This document shows positions 13,380-60,078 of a stretch of 64,000 nucleotides of DNA, piece after piece. How positions within the stretch are numbered: position 1 is the stretch's first letter; every line of letters begins with the position of its first letter. The DNA is from Rhabdophis nuchalis (lineage: Eukaryota; Chordata; Lepidosauria; Squamata; Natricidae). The stretch is taken from positions 374,269,419 through 374,333,418 of the forward strand of contig CM077643.1 in NCBI GenBank assembly GCA_039707465.1, given 5' to 3'. Below the pieces are notes generated by a model that saw only the letters and a list, made by a program, of their open reading frames with translations, was not told the DNA's origin and ran no database searches. Made by a program: the position numbers and the translations under genes.

Positions 13380-14330
13380 AAACTAGAGGCTCTTTCTGAA
13401 ATGATGCAGACCTGTGGTTATGCTATGTGCACATAGATGCATGACGAAAGAATTACAATTAAAATAAGTAAAGAAAAGACATATTTCCTGGAAAAACATA
13501 TTCTGCAGTTTTACAAAATTATGAATGGTTTGGACAAAGTAAACTAAAGGAGATGGCCATTGTATTACTCAGAAATATCTGGCTGGCCATTGCTGCAAAC
13601 CAAATATGGAATAAAAAGTACCACAACATGGCTAACGAAGCAATGCTAGATTTGCTTCTTTCTTTCTACTGATTTTTCATTTATACCCTATTGGGCCTTT
13701 TGTGAAGAATATTAGTATGCATACTTTTGAGCTGTTGGGAAAGATAGCACTTTGTTTGCAGTTTGCTGATTGAAGATGGTTAACAGATAATGATGTCCAA
13801 TGATTCACGTGCTTTGAATCATTTGGTTTGATAAGTATGAATATGCTTTTTTTGCATCACTGAAGCATAAGCAAAGAGACTTAGCATATCTTCATTAGAA
13901 TCTATGTAGAATAATAAAGAACTCAAACATATATTTGCAATTTTTTCTTCTTCTAGAAATACAATTTTAGACTTCTGAGAATGGAACATGAATAATTGTG
14001 ATATGGCTTCAATTTGAATCCTTATTAAATATCTTAAGGACATTGATTGTAACCCAAGGAATATAAAATCTATTTTCATATTTAAATCTTTTCCTTATAG
14101 TATACCTTGTCATCAACAAAAGGTTTCCTAACTTGGTAATAGACTGTCCTTTGGGAACACCATTAATTGGATATGTGAATTAATTGTGGACTAAATTTCA
14201 TTAAGCTGCCATTATCATTGCATTTATATTCTTTCTGTCCTAAATCCTTAGTGGAAACATCTGTTCATCTGCTTGAAGAAACTTTATTTTTCAAGAAGTG
14301 TTTTCAGTGTTAAAAAAAACTTGAATTCTA
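13380..14330. other. No feature recognised
   Basis: AT-rich sequence with no repeat family or coding signal that I can identify. The 86-aa minus-strand ORF at 13819-14079 has no recognisable domain. Confidence 0.5.
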
Positions 14331-14349
14331 CTATTAGACATCCAGGCAG

Positions 14350-14462
14350 CATGATATATATTTATACATATACACATACACATGCATACATATACTTATA
14401 TACATATACAATACACAGACACACACAGACACACTCACACGATAGATAGATAGATATATGTT
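14350..14462. repeat. Mixed dinucleotide and tetranucleotide tract
   Basis: Imperfect (TA)n and (CATA)n, then (ACAC)-rich sequence with AGAC interruptions, then (GATA)n. It borders the hammerhead repeat array. Confidence 0.8.
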
Positions 14463-14463
14463 A

Positions 14464-14570
14464 GATTTTTAAGGGCTCTGTCTGGATGATCTCTAGGTTG
14501 AGTCGAAGGGCAGAGAAGGATGACAATTTGTCTCCTCCCTTAAACGGGCCTCAAAACAGGAGCTGTGAAA
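14464..14570 (+). mobile_element. Relic of the hammerhead-repeat downstream module
   Basis: This reads as a diverged plus-strand copy of the module found antisense at 14605-14740: GGATGATCTCTAGGTTGAG, then GTCGAAGGGCAGAGAAGG, then CTCCTCCCTT. The flank TTAGATTTTTAAGGGC recurs at about 19077-19092, next to the second hammerhead lineage. No hammerhead core is left in this piece. Confidence 0.55.
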
Positions 14571-14604
14571 ATATTATCTCATATATATATATATAAAATA
14601 TTTA

Positions 14605-14740
14605 TTCCACAACACCCTGTTAGGGCCCCAATTAAGGGAGGAGACATACTGTTTCCTCTTCTGCCTTTCGGCTCATCACCAGAGACCATCTAGACAGAAA
14701 GCCATGAGTTCCGTTGTGTAATTTTTTTTTATATGCATGT
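14605..14740 (-). mobile_element. Downstream module, unit 1
   Basis: In sense orientation this holds GTTCCGTTGTG antisense, GTCTAGATGGTCTCTGG, TGATGAGCCGAAAGGCAG, and a segment ending GGGGCCCTAACAGGGTG. GCC-GAAA-GGC can form a small tetraloop hairpin. It is conserved in all three units and on the plus strand at 18930-19060. Its function is unknown. Confidence 0.65.
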
Positions 14741-14770
14741 TACGTTTTTGAGCTGATCAATAAATAGGTC

Positions 14771-14829
14771 AGGGAGACTAGTATAGATCTATTTTGAACT
14801 TTTTAGCTCTCATCAGCTAGCCATACCCT
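14771..14829 (-). ncRNA. Hammerhead motif, copy 1 (core mutated)
   Basis: The minus strand reads AGGG-UAU-GGCUAG, CUGAUGA, a stem II with AAAA loop, then AAAA where GAAA is required, the short stem III around GAUC, and CUAGUC-U-CCCU. Stem I and stem III are complete. The essential G12 is A (CpG to CpA decay) and stem II has one changed base, so it is probably inactive. Confidence 0.8.
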
Positions 14830-14833
14830 TATT

Positions 14834-14897
14834 GGGATTCAAACCAGGGCTGTATTGCAGGCCAGGCGAGAGCCTTAGCCATTAAGCCAGCCAGGTT
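14834..14897 (-). promoter_or_regulatory. tRNA-like head with Pol III A and B boxes, unit 1
   Basis: The A box TGGCTTAATGG is at 14879-14889 (minus strand). The B box GGTTTGAATCC is at 14835-14845, one base from consensus and explicable by CpG decay. The 33-nt gap between them is tRNA-like. The head lies directly upstream of hammerhead copy 1 and is likely the internal Pol III promoter of the element. Confidence 0.7.
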
Positions 14898-14961
14898 CTG
14901 TTCCTGCTCAGCTGAGACAGGAGGATAAGTATATATAATTGTTCCACAACACAACTCAGTA

Positions 14962-15020
14962 AGGGTATGGCTAGCTGATGAGAGCTAAAAAGGTCAAAAT
15001 AAATCTATACTAGTCTCCAT
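14962..15020 (+). ncRNA. Hammerhead motif, plus-strand copy (core mutated)
   Basis: It reads AGGG-UAU-GGCUAG, CUGAUGA, a stem II with AAAA loop, then CAAAA in place of CGAAA, a stem III region with one change, and CUAGUC. It lies in opposite orientation to the three units around it and is followed by GATATATCAGC-like linker and (AC)n. The changed G12 predicts no cleavage. Confidence 0.7.
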
Positions 15021-15049
15021 GACTTATTTATATATCAGCTCAAAAACGT

Positions 15050-15050
15050 A

Positions 15051-15082
<32 letters not shown>
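15050..15082 (+). repeat. (AC)n then (AT)n
   Basis: A simple repeat at the end of the inverted hammerhead piece. It follows the linker end AAAAACGTAAC, the same position where short AC or AT runs sit in the other copies. Confidence 0.9.
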
Positions 15083-15247
15083 GCACAACACCCTGTTAGG
15101 GCCCCAATTAAGGGAGGAAGCATACTGCTTTCCTCTTCTGCCTTTCGGCTCATCACCAGAGACCATCTAGACAGAAAGCCATGAGTTCCGTTGTGTGATT
15201 TTTTAAAATATGTGTGTTAGTTTTATGAGCTGATCAATAAATAAATC

Positions 15248-15306
15248 AGTGAGACCAGTATAGATCTATTTTGAGCTTTTTAGCTCTCATCAGCTAGCCA
15301 TACCCT
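15248..15306 (-). ncRNA. Hammerhead motif, copy 2 (core mutated)
   Basis: Sense strand: AGGG-UAU-GGCUAG, intact CUGAUGA, intact stem II (GAGCU-AAAA-AGCUC), AAAA in place of GAAA, stem III around GAUC, predicted cleavage base A17 at 15259, and CUGGUC closing stem I with wobble pairs. Only G12 of the core is changed. Confidence 0.85.
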
Positions 15307-15310
15307 TACT

Positions 15311-15375
15311 GGGATTCGAACTGGGGCTGTATGGCATGTCAGGCAAGAGCCTTAGCCATTAAGCCAGCCTGGTTC
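15311..15375 (-). promoter_or_regulatory. tRNA-like head with Pol III A and B boxes, unit 2
   Basis: The A box TGGCTTAATGG at 15356-15366 is a full match to TRGCNNARYGG. The B box AGTTCGAATCC at 15312-15322 differs from GGTTCGAATCC at one base. The spacing is 33 nt. It is the best-preserved head in the window and leads straight into hammerhead copy 2. Confidence 0.75.
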
Positions 15376-15585
15376 TCTTATTGCATCAGCTGAGATAGCA
15401 GGATAAGTATATATAATTGTTCCACAACACCCTGTTAGGGCCCAAATTAAGGGAGGAAGCATACTGCTTTCCTCTTCTGCCATTTGGCTCATCACCAGAG
15501 ACCATCTAGACAGAAAGCCATGAGTTCCGTTGTGTGATTTTTTAAATATGTGTGTTAGTTTTATGAGCTGATCAATAAATAAGTC

Positions 15586-15644
15586 ACGGAGACTAGTATA
15601 GATCTATTTCGAGCTTTTTAGCTCTCATCAGCTAGCCATACCCT
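15586..15644 (-). ncRNA. Hammerhead ribozyme, copy 3 (core intact)
   Basis: The sense strand runs in the order stem I 5' side (AGGG, internal loop UAU, GGCUAG), CUGAUGA, stem II GAGCU-AAAA-AGCUC, GAA, A-UA-GAUC-UA-U (3-bp stem III with GAUC tetraloop), cleavage base A17 at 15597, and stem I 3' side CUAGUC-U-CCGU. All invariant core bases of the family (CUGANGA, GAAA, UH) are present. Type I hammerheads with very short stem III usually work best as dimers, which a tandem array would supply. Activity is inferred, not shown. Confidence 0.88.
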
Positions 15645-15801
15645 ATATCCATTCCTTCTGCCACTACTTGAAAGCAGCATAATTTTGATAGGTTAGGAGG
15701 AGTTCAACAGCACATTCATTTGTATTAATGGTTTGTGTTACTTCATCAGCTTTTGGAGTAGAGAAATAAGATTTTGCTGTCCAGATATTGTTAGTCTGTA
15801 A

Positions 15802-16123
15802 CAGGGGTGTCAAACTCAAAGCCCACAGGCCAGATGCTGACCATAGGGTGCTTACATCTGGCCAATGGCCACCCTGGAAACAGTGAAAGACTGTTCCATG
15901 GTGCCATTTTCAGCGACCCTCCTGAGCTCCATTTTGGGCAGTGACAGCCTCCTGCAGCCCTCTGCCAGCAAAAACGGAGCTCACACACCCTTTCTGCTGG
16001 CAGAGGGCTGCAGGAGGCCATCTGAAAAAAAATGGATGTTGAGCTGGCCACGCCCCCCCCCTCCCCCCCCCATTAAACACCACCTTGATGTGGCCATCAA
16101 TGAAATCAGGTTTGACACCCCTG
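15802..16123. mobile_element. Non-autonomous hAT element
   Basis: The termini are CAGGGGTGTCAAACTC on the left and GTTTGACACCCCTG on the right. The flanking octamers gtctgtaa and gtctacaa match at 6 of 8. The interior is GC-rich with a poly-C run near 16050-16070. The overlapping 86- and 89-aa ORFs on opposite strands are incidental. The copy at 53620-53752 has the same ends. Confidence 0.85.
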
Positions 16124-16129
16124 GTCTAC

Positions 16130-16740
16130 AATAACTTTCATGATCCATTACCATTTTGGATTTGCTTGAGGATGGTCCAAGAACATTTGAAGAACTGTGG
16201 GTTATTCAACTCTAATTTTAATTGAGCAAATAAGTGCATATTTTGATGCAGAGGCTAATGCTAAGGTCATATCGGTGATCTGAATACAATACACTTGTTT
16301 ATTTCTTTAAAAGATATTAACCTTATGTCTTCAAAATAGTTCAACAAAATTGTTATAATCATAACATAGAGGCATATTTTAAATTCCATACATCTCATTA
16401 GCTCTTTTAGGATTTCTGATTTATTTTAGTCCCTAGTTTTTCCACAAAGTACGATAATATAAATAAAGGCAACACACATTAAAAAAAAACTTTCATGTTT
16501 TTAATTTAAACATTTAATTTAAATTAAGGCATTGGTAGGAGCCCTGAGAGCAGATGGATTTGACTGCACTGTGGCAACTGCCCTCTTGACTCTTCTGACC
16601 ATACCCTGTGGACATCTCTATACTCTATCCTGGATAAAAACTTTATTAGATGATTCATGTCCTACATTTTCAGACAAGCACAAAATGGACAACAATTCCA
16701 ATGAAATATTCTTAATTTAATTTAATCTAATGGCGTAATT
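16130..16740. other. No feature recognised
   Basis: AT-rich sequence between a hAT element and a LINE fragment. I see nothing to annotate. Confidence 0.5.
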
Positions 16741-16744
16741 TAAT

Positions 16745-17180
16745 GTCAGGTGTTGCATCTTTTCTATGATGCCCTACGGAGTTGGCCTCTGACAGAAAAC
16801 CACTTGAAGAGACTAGAAGCATTTGAAATGTGGATTTACAGATGGCTGCTACATAAAAGCTGGGTTGACCAAATCAGAAATGAGGAGGTGATAAGCTGCC
16901 TGGGAAAGCTAGGGAGATCATCAAAACCATTAAAACGCTAAAGTTAGAATATTTCAGACATGCGATGCAACAGCCGGAAAAATACGCCATACTTCACTTA
17001 ATCCTCCAGGGAACGATTGAAGGCAAATGAGGTCCAGGCAGAAGAAGAACATCATGGCTTCAAAATCTAAAGGGCTGGTTTGGACAAAGCTCAGCAGCAC
17101 TTTTTCATGTGCCTATCGATAAAAATAGGATTTCCAACATGATTGCCAACATCCGATGATGGATATGGTACAAGAAGAAG
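16745..17180 (+). pseudogene. Non-LTR retrotransposon RT C-terminus (RTE-like), decayed
   Basis: Residues from 16750 read LTENHLKRLEAFEMWIYRWL and SWVDQIRNEEVISCLGK, the typical post-RT C-terminal segment of RTE-type endonuclease-reverse transcriptases. It continues in broken frames (GRRRTSWL-like near 17030, MIANIR near 17140) and ends in an (AAG)n tail at about 17163-17175. The text differs from the Bov-B copies in this window, so it is a second RTE-like family. The clade assignment is tentative. Confidence 0.65.
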
Positions 17181-17425
17181 AAGAATTTTTAATTTCTACA
17201 TAAAATAAAATGCAAAGACCATAAAGTAGACATGGGTAATCTTTTGCCTGGACTGATACTATATACATGCTAGGCCAATGTGAGGTTATTGTTGTTCAAC
17301 TTCAGTCCTATTATTATAGGGTTACAGTTTCTTTCCACCCTAGCTACTACAGCTGAAAATAATGTAACCTAACACATCTGGAAGGTGATATATTCTAAAG
17401 ACTAATTTGTATCTATCATTAGCAG

Positions 17426-17875
17426 AGGTTTTATTTTATTTATTTATTTTATTTTTATTTATTTAAATTTATATCCCGCCCTTCTCCACAAAGGACCCAG
17501 GGCGGCGCACAGGAAATTTAAAAACATACAAAATACAATAAATATAATTTAAAAAACTATTAAATAAACCTATCCTGCGCTAAAACCAAATTTTAAAAAC
17601 CCAATTTAAAACTACCTAAAAGTCCCCATGGGAGGTTAGGCTAGGCCGGCTTGTTGGAACAAATATGTCTTAAGACATTGGCGGAAGAGGCGGAGGTCGG
17701 TGATAGTACGTAATTCAGGGGGTAGGTCATTCCAAAGGGCTGGGCCCGCCACAGAGAAGGCTCTTCCCCTGGGTGTCGCCAGTCGGCATTGTCCGGCCGA
17801 CGGCACCCTGAGAAGGCCTTCTCTGTGGGAGCGTATCGGTCGAAGGGATGTTTTTAGCAGAACATCTGGAGAACT
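17426..17875 (-). pseudogene. L2 LINE 3' fragment
   Basis: The minus strand carries the L2 C-terminal coding text (FSVAGPALWNDLPPEL-like near 17700-17760) and the 3' UTR, with an (ATTTT)n-like tail at 17426-17465 on the plus strand. It is truncated at the 5' end near 17870. The GGCGGCGCACAGGAAATT box near 17500 is shared with the other L2 copies. Confidence 0.8.
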
Positions 17876-17879
17876 CAGA

Positions 17880-18240
17880 GATTAAAGCTGCCTGGATTTT
17901 AATGTTCCACCACTAAACAATCATCCTTTTCTTTCAACGTACTTTAAAGATACCAAGCCCACAAATATCAAAATAGGGAGAAAATAGCAGATTCATGCCA
18001 GAATATCACATATTTTCTGCAAAATTTGCAAATACTGATCATGCTCCTTGGGGCTTCCAAAGTTTGTCCCCTTTTTGTAAATCAAATTTGATATGATTGG
18101 TTTTTATTAATTTTTTTCTTCATATTATGATCACTTTTTTCCTATCAATTATATTTTTCCCTAAGCGGTTTGATAATTGGTGCCCTACCTTTCTGCCAAC
18201 AGTTGCTCATGGTTGATAATAACAGTAATGTAAATCCTAT
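17880..18240. other. No feature recognised
   Basis: AT-rich sequence with no recognisable repeat or coding signal. Confidence 0.5.
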
Positions 18241-18245
18241 AATTT

Positions 18246-18598
18246 TGGACGTGGTGACTCAATGGATAAGACGCTGAGCTTGTGGTTCAAATAGGTCAGC
18301 AGTTTGGCGGTTCAAATCCCTAGCGCTCCATAACGGAGTGAGCTTCCCTTACTTGTACCAGCTTTGGCCAACATAGCAGTTTGAAAGCACATAAAAATGC
18401 AAGTAGAACAATAGGAACAACCTTTGGTGGGAAGGCAACAGCATTCCATGCACCTTCGGTATTTAGTCATGCCAGCCACATGACCACAGAGATGTCTTCG
18501 GACAGTGCTGGCTCTTCGGCTTTGAAACGGAGATAAGCACCACACATTAGAGTCAGTAATGTCTAGTACATATGTGTGAGGGGAACCTTTACCTTAAA
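18246..18598 (+). mobile_element. Full-length tRNA-derived SINE (Sauria type)
   Basis: The head CTCAATGGATAAGACGCTG is an A-box region and GGTTCAAATCCCTAG is a B box. The body includes GGTGGGAAGGCAACAGC, and the 3' end runs GAGTCAGTAATGTCTAG to GGGGAACCTTTACCTT, a Bov-B-like terminus. Relatives lie at 44420-44775 and 49748-49835. Confidence 0.85.
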
Positions 18599-18753
18599 TG
18601 CTATAAATAAATAAAATTACACTTAAATAAAAGACTATATGTGTGTGCGTTACGTTTTTGAGCTGATTAATAAATATGTGGAAATGTGGAAACAATTATA
18701 TATATGTATGTATGTATGTATGTTACGTTTTTGAGCTGATCAATAAATAAGTC

Positions 18754-18812
18754 AGGGAGACTAGGATAGATCTATTTCGAGCTTTTTAGCTCTCATCTGC
18801 TAGCCATACCCT
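18754..18812 (-). ncRNA. Hammerhead motif, left palindrome arm (core mutated)
   Basis: Stems I, II and III and CGAAA are intact, with AUC as the cleavage triplet. The core reads CAGAUGA instead of CUGAUGA, so U4 is changed. It is probably inactive. Confidence 0.8.
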
Positions 18813-18832
18813 TACTGGGATTCAAACTGGTA

Positions 18833-18891
18833 AGGGTATGGCTAGCTGTTGACAGCTAAAAAGCTCGAAATAGATCTATCCTAGTCTCCCT
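18833..18891 (+). ncRNA. Hammerhead motif, right palindrome arm (core mutated)
   Basis: The core reads CUGUUGA (A6 changed) and the first base of stem II is C instead of G. GAAA, stem III around GAUC, the AUC triplet and stem I (GGCUAG with CUAGUC, AGGG with CCCU) are intact. It is probably inactive. Confidence 0.8.
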
Positions 18892-18924
18892 GACTTATTT
18901 ATTGATCAGCTCAAAAACGTAACA

Positions 18925-19070
18925 CACATATAAAAAAATTACACAATGGAATTCATGGCTTTCTGTCTAGATGGTCTCTGGTGATGAGCCAAAAGGCAGA
19001 AAAGGAAAAGCAGTGTGCTTCCTCCCTTATTTGGGGCCCTAACAGGGTGTTGTGGAAACAAATATATATA
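18925..19070 (+). mobile_element. Downstream module, plus-strand copy
   Basis: This follows the right-arm hammerhead in sense orientation and has the same order as the minus-strand units: GTCTAGATGGTCTCTGG, TGATGAGCCAAAAGGCAG (one base changed in the loop), TTCCTCCCTTA and GGGGCCCTAACAGGGTG. It confirms the element structure in the other orientation. Confidence 0.75.
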
Positions 19071-19100
19071 TTGTGTTAGATTTTTTAAGGGCTGAAAATA

Positions 19101-19160
19101 AAGAGACCAGGATGGATCCATTTCAGGCTTATTAGCCTTCTTCAGCTGGCCATACTCCTT
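19101..19160 (-). ncRNA. Hammerhead ribozyme, second lineage (core intact)
   Basis: The sense strand has AAGGAG, internal loop UAU, GGCCAG, then CUGAAGA (N7 is A, allowed), a 5-bp stem II AGGCU-AAUA-AGCCU, GAAA, stem III U-G closed by GAUC and C-A, cleavage triplet AUC, and CUGGUC. Compared with the first lineage, stem I has C-G for U-A, stem II is rebuilt, and stem III has G-C for A-U. A truncated plus-strand copy ends in the AT run at 19213. Confidence 0.85.
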
Positions 19161-19208
19161 CTACTGGGATTTGATCCCAGTAGAAGGAGTGTGGCCAGCT
19201 GAAGAAGG

Positions 19209-19213
<5 letters not shown>
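19131..19213. repeat. 40-bp inverted repeat with 3-nt loop
   Basis: Arms 19131-19170 and 19174-19213 pair with one mismatch. They cover the stem I 5' side, core and stem II of the second hammerhead lineage, with a T-arm-like GGGATCAAATCCC at the centre. Confidence 0.95.

Positions 19214-19241
<28 letters not shown>
19212..19241. repeat. (AT)n
   Basis: Dinucleotide run directly abutting the truncated second-lineage hammerhead. Confidence 0.95.
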
Positions 19242-19244
<3 letters not shown>

Positions 19245-19245
<1 letters not shown>

Positions 19246-20545
19246 GGCAGTTAAACATCAGTTCAAAAAATGATGTAAAACCATAATCAGCAAATTGGCT
19301 TGTGTCTGGAAAAAGACCAGCAGCCAATGTAACTGCATAAAATAGAAATCCTGATATTTAACTTCAGTCAGTAATCTGATTTCCGTATTTCGGAACTGAT
19401 GAAACTTCTAAATGTCCTTGAAAGGCCATCACATATAATATAAATGAGATGTAACTCACGGTGTTTCTACTCTGGTGTTTCTAGGAACAGACACAATTTG
19501 TGCATGAACTCTGCTTTATATACGAATCCTTCTTTAACAAGATCTCTTAGCCACAGAGCATCTCTTGCTGTTCACAGAACATAATGTATGTGTTGTTCAC
19601 TTTTAATGTCATAAAACGTTTCATAATTCTAATGGAAAAAATGGACAGGGATAATATTGTTTATCTTGTTGAATATATCCTCCATGATATGAGGGGGAAA
19701 AATCTCATGCCACATGAAAGTCATAATTTTATTCCATGACCTCCTGTTCCGTTATAAAGATCAGAATATTTTTTACAAGTTATGAAGGTGCATTCATTTC
19801 TATATTGCAGCATGTTTTAGAAATTGCACTATATCATGTAGTAGTTCAAATAATATAAAGTAATTTGGGAGATTTGCCAAGTGGGTGTGAATATGAAGGA
19901 ACTTATCCTCCTTATAAAAATTGCAATTCTATTTGACTATTGTTGAACAGGCTTTTAATTAGATACATTTCATGTGATTTATTTCTTATAGTAAATTAAC
20001 AGTCATGCAAAGAGAAAAAATTAAATATTTTTTCTGCCTAGCATGTTACGTTTCTACTTGCAGAAACAGAAATTATTTTCTTTGTGGTAAAAACATCCAC
20101 ATATTTGTTCATATTTGCCTAGTCCTCTTCCCAATCCTGTAGACAAGAGGAAGAACACTTTCTTGCTTAGTTCTATTCATTTTTTTTCAAGTGACCTGAA
20201 GCTATGTTACATATCTTGGTTGAAACTGCCCCAGAATGATCTGTAATGAGTTAAGCTGCCCCACTGAATAAGTGGAGATATTAATAAAAATTATTAGAAA
20301 TAAATTGAATGAGGTGGGAAGCTTTAGGTCTGCAGAGACAATCACAGTTGAAGCAAATCAGCTCATTTAAATTAATGTGGAGAATCACTGTAACAGTGCC
20401 TGATTGTTTCATTAGAACTGAAAATGCATTTGCAAGCTTGTAGTTGAGTCTCAAAATGAATAAGACAGAGGGGTATTTTTATTGCTCTGATCTGGGATAA
20501 GGGGGCAACGCACAGATTCCAACTCTTTCTGAAGTGCCTATTTGT
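19245..20545. other. No feature recognised
   Basis: AT-rich sequence without repeat families or coding signals that I can identify. Confidence 0.5.
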
Positions 20546-31737: not shown

Positions 31738-32510
31738 TCATAGAATCATAGAACTGGAAGGGACATCAGAAGTCTTCTGGTCCAACCTCTGATCCAAGGC
31801 AGAAGTCCTAGTATCACAGTGGTGGCGCAGTGGTTAGAATGCAGAGGTGCAGGCTACTTCTGCTGAATACTGGCTGCCAGCAGTTTGGCAATTGTGTCCC
31901 ACTGGCTCAAAGTTGACTCAGCCTTGCATCCTTTCGAGGTGGGTAAAATGAGGCCCCAGATTGTTGGGGGCAATATGCTGATCGCTTATAGAGAGCTGTA
32001 AAGCACTGTGAAGTGGTAGATAAGTCTAAGTACTATTGCTAAGTGCTGTTTCAGGCAAATAGTTGTCCAATCTTTGCTTGAAAACCTTCAGTAATGAAAT
32101 ACCCACAATTCCAGGAGGCAAGCACAATTCCAGTGACAGCACTGTCAGGAAATTCCTCCTTATTTCCAGAGTGGATCTCCTTCTGATGAGTTTCCACCTA
32201 TTGCTTCTTGTCTTACTCTCAGGTGCTATGCAGAATAAATTGATGCCTTCGTCCCTGTGGTAGTCCCTCAAGTTTTGAAAGACTAATATGTCTCCCCTCA
32301 ATCCCATCTTCATTAATTTAAATATGGCTAGTTCCATTCTTCATTGGATTTAAACTCCAGATCGTTTATCATCTTTGTTGGTCTTCTCGGAACTCTTTCT
32401 AGGATCCTTTTTTTGTATTGTGGTGATCAGAACTGGGTGCAGTATTCCAAACGCCTAGTTTTCATTCAAGATTTCCTAACTAGCCAGTATATCAGGAGAG
32501 ACTATAGTAG
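31738..32510 (-). pseudogene. Old CR1 LINE 3' region, interrupted by a SINE
   Basis: The antisense 3' end (ATAGAATCATAGAACTGG, then CATCAGAAGTCTTCTGG) is followed, after the SINE at 31813-32040, by antisense RT C-terminal text. The minus-strand ORF at 32026-32337 still reads LRGDILVFQNLRDYHRDEG and SNRWKLIRRRSTLEIRRNFL. The frame is broken elsewhere. It belongs to a CR1 subfamily with the ATTCTATGATTCTA-type end, not the (TATTG)n end. Confidence 0.8.
31813..32040 (+). mobile_element. tRNA-derived SINE nested in CR1
   Basis: The head GTGGCGCAGTGGTTAGAATG, the body GAGGTGGGTAAAATGAGG and the end TAAGTCTAAGTACTATTGC mark the same family as 5530-5753. It was inserted in the old CR1 and is therefore younger than it. 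Confidence 0.8.
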
Positions 32511-59908: not shown

Positions 59909-60078
59909 CCAAAGGTGCTTTTTCAAGAGACAACTGGAATTTCTTGTTTTTCTTTGAAGATGTTTCGCTTCTTATCCAAGAATCTTCTCAGCTGAAGAAG
60001 ATTCTTGGATGAGAAGTGAAACGTCTTCAAAGAAAAACAAGAAAGTCTAGTTGCCTCTTTGAAAAAGCACCTTTGGGA
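59909..60078. repeat. Near-perfect ~170-bp palindrome
   Basis: The left arm begins CCAAAGGTGCTTTTTCAAG and the right arm ends TTGAAAAAGCACCTTTGG. The centre is near 59992 (CTCAGCTGAAG). Mismatches are few and scattered. The inner right arm carries GGATGAGAAGTGAAACGTC, a motif of a repeat common in fish and reptile genomes whose class I cannot state. Confidence 0.9.

Follow-up and report, generated by a model that had tools for sequence, protein, structure and literature searches.

The DNA analysed here, called the window, is a stretch of 64,000 nucleotides from Rhabdophis nuchalis, and its minus strand between 14600 and 15650 carries copies of a repeat unit of about 338 bp, in which a tRNA-like head, a type I hammerhead ribozyme (HHR), a linker and a conserved domain follow one another in this order. 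Three copies lie on this strand: a partial one at 15423-15644 (96% identity to the middle copy), a complete one at 15084-15430, which was the search query itself, and another complete one at 14608-14952 (91% to the query). Insertion I (15084-15644) is a single head-to-tail run of about 1.65 units (query positions q125-347, then q1-347), which is 5'-truncated at 15644 and has its reverse-transcription (RT) start side, site A, at about 15084. The HHR starts of the first two copies stand 338 nt apart, in agreement with the original prediction that the next copy follows head to tail at this distance, and the step from the second to the third copy is 477 nt. The extra 139 nt or so arise because a simple repeat (15058-15083), which separates insertions I and II, and an inverted plus-strand copy (14957-15057) intervene. 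The third minus-strand unit is part of this separate inverted+forward insertion (insertion II) and not of the first run: it forms the forward arm, whose outer end is site A adjoining (TA)n, and the inverted arm ends outward at site B (15057).

Within the complete unit of insertion I, all on the minus strand, the head with its A and B boxes occupies approximately 15300-15374, the site A sequence GAACAATTATATATAC lies inside the run at 15407-15422, and site B, the second RT-start site, is found at 15211-15220. The conserved domain, which extends from site B to site A, covers 15084-15198, and its ACAAC/GUUGU closing stem is assigned by homology to other copies (in the window, the copy at 14594-14754).

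An intact HHR core exists in only one of the three minus-strand copies. The HHR at 15582-15645 contains CUGAUGA and GAAA with the stem III palindrome UAGAUCUA and has one non-pair, in outer stem I; its predicted cut lies between 15597 and 15596, following the hammerhead rule. The layout is that of type I, with a stem III of A-U, U-A and A-U under a palindromic GAUC cap. In the HHRs at 15244-15307 and 14767-14830 AAAA replaces GAAA, the latter having core and stem II changes, and both are predicted to be inactive, as is the decayed HHR of the inverted copy (14961-15024, plus strand). Thus the proposal of three minus-strand units with the same hammerhead layout stands as to the three copies, but two of their HHRs are predicted inactive and the third unit belongs to another insertion.

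Rfam hammerhead models, to which the original prediction had looked for recognition, gave no match above the gathering score in the window. The commonest match was HH9 (RF02275, the amniote intronic HHR), at 15574-15645 (27.6 bits, E 0.011), 15239-15307 (22.5 bits, E 0.45) and 18742-18814 (29.2 bits, E 0.0033, in a copy with an altered core), all below the gathering score of 52, and the third unit had no Rfam HHR match at E<=1. Over 15 of the 39 loci described below, HH9 reached 32.4 bits (gathering 52) and Hammerhead_1 33.4 bits (gathering 34). These scores stay below gathering, and the HHR call rests on the core, on covariation and on the predicted double-hammerhead fold.

Other copies were found nearby. 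A second cluster consists of an inverted arm at 18715-18830 (minus strand), whose outer end is site B, and a forward arm at 18830-19054 (plus strand), whose outer end is site A, both with an altered HHR core. A sister family, called family 2, is represented by a fragment of the domain part at 14476-14572 (plus strand) and by a copy at 19068-19174 (minus strand) with an intact variant hammerhead (CUGAAGA, AGGC/GCCU, UGGAUCCA), which stands head-to-head with a short plus-strand arm reaching, by eye, about 19212.

The unit consensus, derived from 41 copies, is 339 nt long (GC 43.7%; divergence median 2.6%, lowest 1.2%) and confirms the proposed layout of a non-autonomous HHR element with a tRNA-like head and a unit of about 338 nt. 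It runs from site A (GAACAATTAT..) through the tRNA-like head, the HHR and site B (CTAACACACA) into a domain of about 115 nt that leads back to site A. A unit of this length leaves no room for an RT and GIY-YIG coding region, and the coding Penelope-like element (PLE) described below is a separate family. In L044 (566-967) family-2 units also stand head-to-tail at 338 nt, although their likeness to family 1 across the HHR and domain is about 72%, which indicates that the unit length was conserved while the sequence diverged.

The head of the consensus has an A box, TGGCTGAATGG, and a B box, GTTCGAATC, 35 nt apart, and a comparable pair appeared in 3 of 5000 dinucleotide shuffles of the consensus. 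Rfam tRNA matched the heads in 5 of 15 loci, best in L035 (29.2 bits, gathering 29, E 0.044), where the match (1575-1648) exceeds the element run (1485-1641) by about 7 nt; E was 2.3-4.9 in the other four, and there was a sixth match, which falls in L036 but not within the unit. ARAGORN with default settings found 0 tRNA genes on the head in the window. A tRNA origin of the head is likely, judged from its sequence, and the element would be transcribed by Pol III. Two candidate signals were discarded: a lax ARAGORN call in the consensus is worthless, as 407 of 500 shuffles were also called, and the missing TTTT (Pol III terminator) was dropped, as TTTT is lacking from 59% of shuffles too and is present in 10 of the 41 units.

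Genome-wide, the 43-nt intact HHR of family 1 has 1,495 exact matches and that of family 2 has 2,441, with 0 for the reversed control in each case, and the stems of the two families differ through compensatory pairs. The core pattern was passed by 51 of the 87 copies spanning the HHR region in the first loci set. For an alignment of 52 copies (2 of 54 distinct rows were dropped as chance) the row pattern demanded CTGANGA and [GA]AAA and left the stems free, so that conservation of the core is by construction. In this alignment 94.8% of cells pair, and two-sided change occurs in 7 of 18 pairs. Cells with two-sided change numbered 21 against 3.7+-1.7 when shuffled, a result inflated because the copies are related, and 2-9 when slid, a control which flatters the structure because that was drawn from folds of the same sequences. 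These changes go back to few origins, family 2 together with an intermediate form supplying much of them, and the number of further pair types is unremarkable (59 of 500 shuffles were equally high).

For one copy per family, the unconstrained two-strand minimum was the double hammerhead (-46.4 and -43.4 kcal/mol, computed without a shuffled control), although a palindromic stem III favours dimers in any case. Single-strand folds of six copies had z from -2.1 to +0.3, i.e. they are not unusually stable, and the catalytic single-strand fold lay above the minimum by 0.6 (family 2), 3.1 (family 1) and 5.5 kcal/mol (window copy). The HHR is probably a real, maintained ribozyme as far as sequence and folding indicate, and the RNA would be expected to cleave itself. 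A second hammerhead-like string in the domain, GGTGATGAGCCGAAAGGCAGAAG, was put down to chance because family 2 does not keep it. The HHR pattern had 0 matches in a viral-contig and a genome-contig set, which are uninformative for reptiles.

To describe the insertions, we classified the ends of runs in two samples, in both of which matches had to reach 80% identity and runs had to end inside the locus. Sample 1 comprises 124 runs from the 39 best full-length loci, which biases it to long runs, and from window positions 13501-20500. Sample 2 comprises 25 of 30 loci (5 overlapping ones were dropped), chosen by an exact intact HHR among the first matches listed on contig C1. The position intervals for A and B were fixed after viewing sample 1, the B interval was widened by 2 nt in sample 2, and both were slightly widened for the table of pairs. 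It turned out that the RT-start side lies at one of two internal sites in most runs (104 of 124 in sample 1, 59 at A and 45 at B; 53 of 75 in sample 2, 18 at A and 35 at B). Opposite-side ends fell there in 17 of 124 runs (A 13, B 4), close to the uniform expectation of 16, and in 4 of 75 (A 3, B 1). Thus the single 3' end with a simple tail that characterises a SINE was not found; two internal start sites are used instead, and on this point the label SINE fails for the squamate element.

Besides, the runs are frequently joined into inverted+forward pairs. We counted 66 such pairs, of which 24 had an unclassified end, and among the 42 with both ends classified 35 were A+B, 4 were B+B and 3 were A+A (binomial p 8e-6). 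A simple repeat lay within 40 nt of outward-facing ends at A in 26 of 49 cases and at B in 29 of 41 (together 55 of 90), compared with 8 of 15 other RT-start ends and 48 of 3000 random windows; the 5' ends, with 10 of 38, are also above this background. Various kinds of simple repeat adjoin one and the same start site, which argues for simple repeats that existed as targets before insertion, and expansion after insertion is a possible alternative source. For 17 B-to-A domains, picked by hand from the two families, RNAalifold predicted an ACAAC/GUUGU stem closing the domain, with A-U changed to G-C in 4 sequences. This stem might bring A and B, about 130 nt apart, side by side, like the PLE sites; we keep it as a hypothesis because covariation contributes an unfavourable 0.13 kcal/mol. 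The 5'-side ends cluster at consensus positions of about 87, about 112 and about 180-199 (30 of 124 in the last stretch; loci L009-L047 and L048-L077), for which structure stops, or palindrome or microhomology at inner joints, are candidate causes.

The spacing of about 338 bp recurs in both families elsewhere in the same genome (some places are entered twice in the list, L041/L096 and L058/L091), so the tandem arrangement in the original prediction is borne out, but only for a minority of copies. A run exceeded one unit in 3 of 25 anchor runs of the HHR-only sample; in the sample picked for full length the longest run was above 369 nt in 36 of 40. Head-to-tail copies at 338 bp would also be expected of satellite DNA spread by unequal exchange, with the hammerhead as a relic. 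We give this reading hardly any credence, considering the thousands of dispersed sites, the short runs and the fixed positions of the ends, which frequently lie in simple repeats.

The original prediction held nothing on the two internal start sites, the A+B inverted pairs, the simple-repeat flanks, a matching PLE or the inverted copy at 14957-15057, and the first four of these point to the enzyme. The sequence that fills a gap in L041 codes for part of an RT, including YVDD. A first look located such PLE RT sequences at 2,533 genome places; the 150 of these that were scored all have 90% identity or more, and their open frames reach 893 aa. A 145-aa piece gave no Pfam family and longer frames gave RVT_1; for instance, one 893-aa frame matches RVT_1 with E 5e-17 and contains GVYKIPC..CPATYIGQT, a GIY-YIG motif by eye (Pfam E 0.54). 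A 51-nt string of PLE HHR plus tail has 1,709 exact genome matches, and it appears to belong to the same PLE as the RT frames, since the string starts such a frame and the L118 frame opens with a similar peptide.

The PLE copies also end at two sites. Among 26 copies read by eye, which come from the first 18 regions, the tail ends near site 1 (CCAAAGACCTACATA) in 11 and near site 2 (CTCAGAAAACA) in 14, and one copy stops about 10 nt short of site 2. From the presumed HHR cut it is 57 nt to site 1 and 85 nt to site 2, so that the two sites are about 28 nt apart, compared with about 130 nt for A and B of the retrozyme, and beyond AC/AT-rich letters no common start-site sequence was seen between the two elements. 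By arithmetic from numbers given in PMC11167929, the Anolis element PAc starts 85-92 nt past its own cut. Among the 100 PLE matches listed, neighbours within 6 kb were divergent in 22 cases and convergent in 5. We read 21 of the 22 divergent pairs, and 20 of these have one of each site (17 by rule and 3 by eye, one of the latter including the end short of site 2), so the one-of-each pattern of the retrozyme is observed in the PLE too. An optional 31-bp tail on one of two inverted pLTRs, mentioned for PLEs in PMC3846280, fits this pattern and foreshadows part of the rule.

Retrozyme and PLE copies are also neighbours. Among the matches listed (no more than the first 100 for each pattern), a PLE is found within 2 kb of 13 of the 69 family-2 clusters, where 0.28 were expected and 4000 shuffles never gave more than 4; for family 1 the count is 3 of 53 (0.2 expected; shuffle maximum 4), which is weak. 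At L118:2892-3340 and L097:1-660 the ends of PLE copies are bordered by retrozyme copies, and in L097 a (GATA)n tract separates the site-2 end of the PLE from the site-A end of the retrozyme. The common possession of HHRs and of the insertion anatomy might suggest that the unit is a deletion derivative of the PLE itself instead of an independent tRNA-headed element, which we regard as very unlikely: with blastn of both units against L118, L097, L081 and part of L043, matches appeared only beside the PLE (in L118 and L097).

We judge it likely that the element is a squamate retrozyme-SINE, tRNA-headed and non-autonomous, which is mobilised in trans by a hammerhead-bearing PLE. Its RNA would contain a type I hammerhead; with a stem III that is short and palindromic, two units are predicted to combine preferably into a double hammerhead. 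We infer that the PLE reverse transcriptase/endonuclease copies this RNA in trans. Insertion would take place at a simple repeat, where each of the two nicked DNA strands would prime cDNA at an internal RNA site, A for one strand and B for the other, and the meeting of the two cDNAs would give an inverted+forward insertion. The RNA may circularise, and cDNA synthesis that continued beyond a single unit, along a circular or multimeric template, would give tandems of about 338 bp. An ordinary tRNA-SINE mobilised by a LINE, which merely carried the hammerhead along and whose tandems were chance dimers, would account for the tRNA-like head, and squamate SINEs are at times tandem according to PMC10702118. 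This explanation is unlikely, because it is at odds with two internal start sites in place of a single 3' end, with the A+B inverted pairs, with tandem joins in constant register and with the match to PLE anatomy.

The nature of the template is a separate question. Few 5' ends fall at the predicted cleavage site (4 of 124 in sample 1 and 1 of 75 in sample 2); a linear self-cleaved template is not supported by this, and we rejected such ends as proof of cleaved templates. Rare variants were common to neighbouring units in 20 of 173 comparisons against 2.7 expected (about 10 variants, counted from both sides), and to inverted arms in 12 of 120 against 2.3 expected; pairs from different loci gave 294 of 21,061. 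With the same element and the same PLE enzyme, the template could instead be an uncleaved multimeric read-through RNA, no circle being formed and the hammerhead serving another step such as 5'-end release. The copies read across the cleavage site with no pile-up of ends there, and the HHR is dispensable for Anolis PLE insertion in vitro (PMC11167929). The sharing of rare variants between neighbours is, on the other side, as expected from one circle copied twice, and metazoan retrozymes form circles (PMC7229834); tandem sources are equally compatible with both points. We consider the uncleaved template a real, if somewhat doubtful, possibility.

Returning to the retrozyme-SINE copied by the PLE enzyme, its features agree with three known systems in different respects. 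It has the type I hammerhead within the unit and the tandem copies, in a unit range of about 170-400 nt, of metazoan non-LTR retrozymes, and the two internal RT-start sites, one per strand, and the inverted or partial copies of PLE-type insertions. SINE-like SMalpha elements with a hammerhead were reportedly described in schistosomes by Ferbeyre in 1998. In the sections of PMC4918200 (tRNA) and PMC8490949 (SMalpha) on these elements, tRNA sequence and a type I HHR are likewise combined in a SINE-like repeat, and PLE-type A+B pairs are not described; the host is another one, and the likeness is one of plan. The axolotl Rtz_331/Rtz_353 and newt satellite repeats (Cervera & de la Pena 2020, PMC7229834) are alike in the type I HHR, the very short helix III and the palindromic tetraloop. 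The metazoan retrozymes of that study also have a unit of about 330-350 nt, GC below 45%, tandem copies and HHR-bearing PLEs in the same genome, and they differ in host, tRNA-like head and start-site anatomy. About 126,000 motifs are given there for axolotl, whereas exact matches only were counted here.

The Anolis Poseidon element PAc (Frangieh 2024, PMC11167929) likewise has two adjacent internal start sites with both strands extended by the PLE protein, an HHR upstream of the sites, and tandem and partial copies. Unlike PAc, the squamate unit (339 nt) is too short for an RT, is tRNA-headed and has sites about 130 nt apart. In vitro, PAc showed no strand difference in start site, in contrast to the one-site-per-strand pattern observed here. 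Amniote intronic HHRs lie in introns of particular genes (PMC6155905), whereas the HHR of the squamate element is repetitive and mobile. From these sources, the closest kin would be the axolotl and newt retrozymes if the size of the unit, the type of HHR and stem III are considered, SMalpha by the plan of tRNA plus HHR, and PLEs by insertion. A description of such an element in squamates was not found in the open-licence literature.

The retrozyme insertions bear a PLE-like mark, in a genome that contains both partners in large numbers. If the proposed mobilisation is true, PLEs gain SINEs of their own, and the one-site-per-strand rule becomes a testable property of PLE integration, and a purified lizard PLE system (PMC11167929) is available in which the prediction can be put to the test. 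A broader proposal, which we put forward tentatively and at somewhat less than even confidence, is a vertebrate SINE class defined by PLE mobilisation, whose members would parasitise a PLE and not a LINE and would be transcribed by Pol III, self-circularising and, in each two-sided insertion, started at a different one of the two RNA sites on each strand, with the B-A stem domain as the handle for the PLE protein.

Two further places in the window deserve mention. At 31822-31846 lies what we take to be a Sauria/Squam1-like SINE head, with 2 mismatches to the consensus, which points to a squamate. Rfam miRNA matches at 19130-19214 and 59912-60073 (the latter below threshold) were rejected, as they fall on palindromic insertions. 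The insertion at 59912-60073 carries another PLE-type minimal hammerhead, and both of its arms end outward near AAAAGCACC (by eye).
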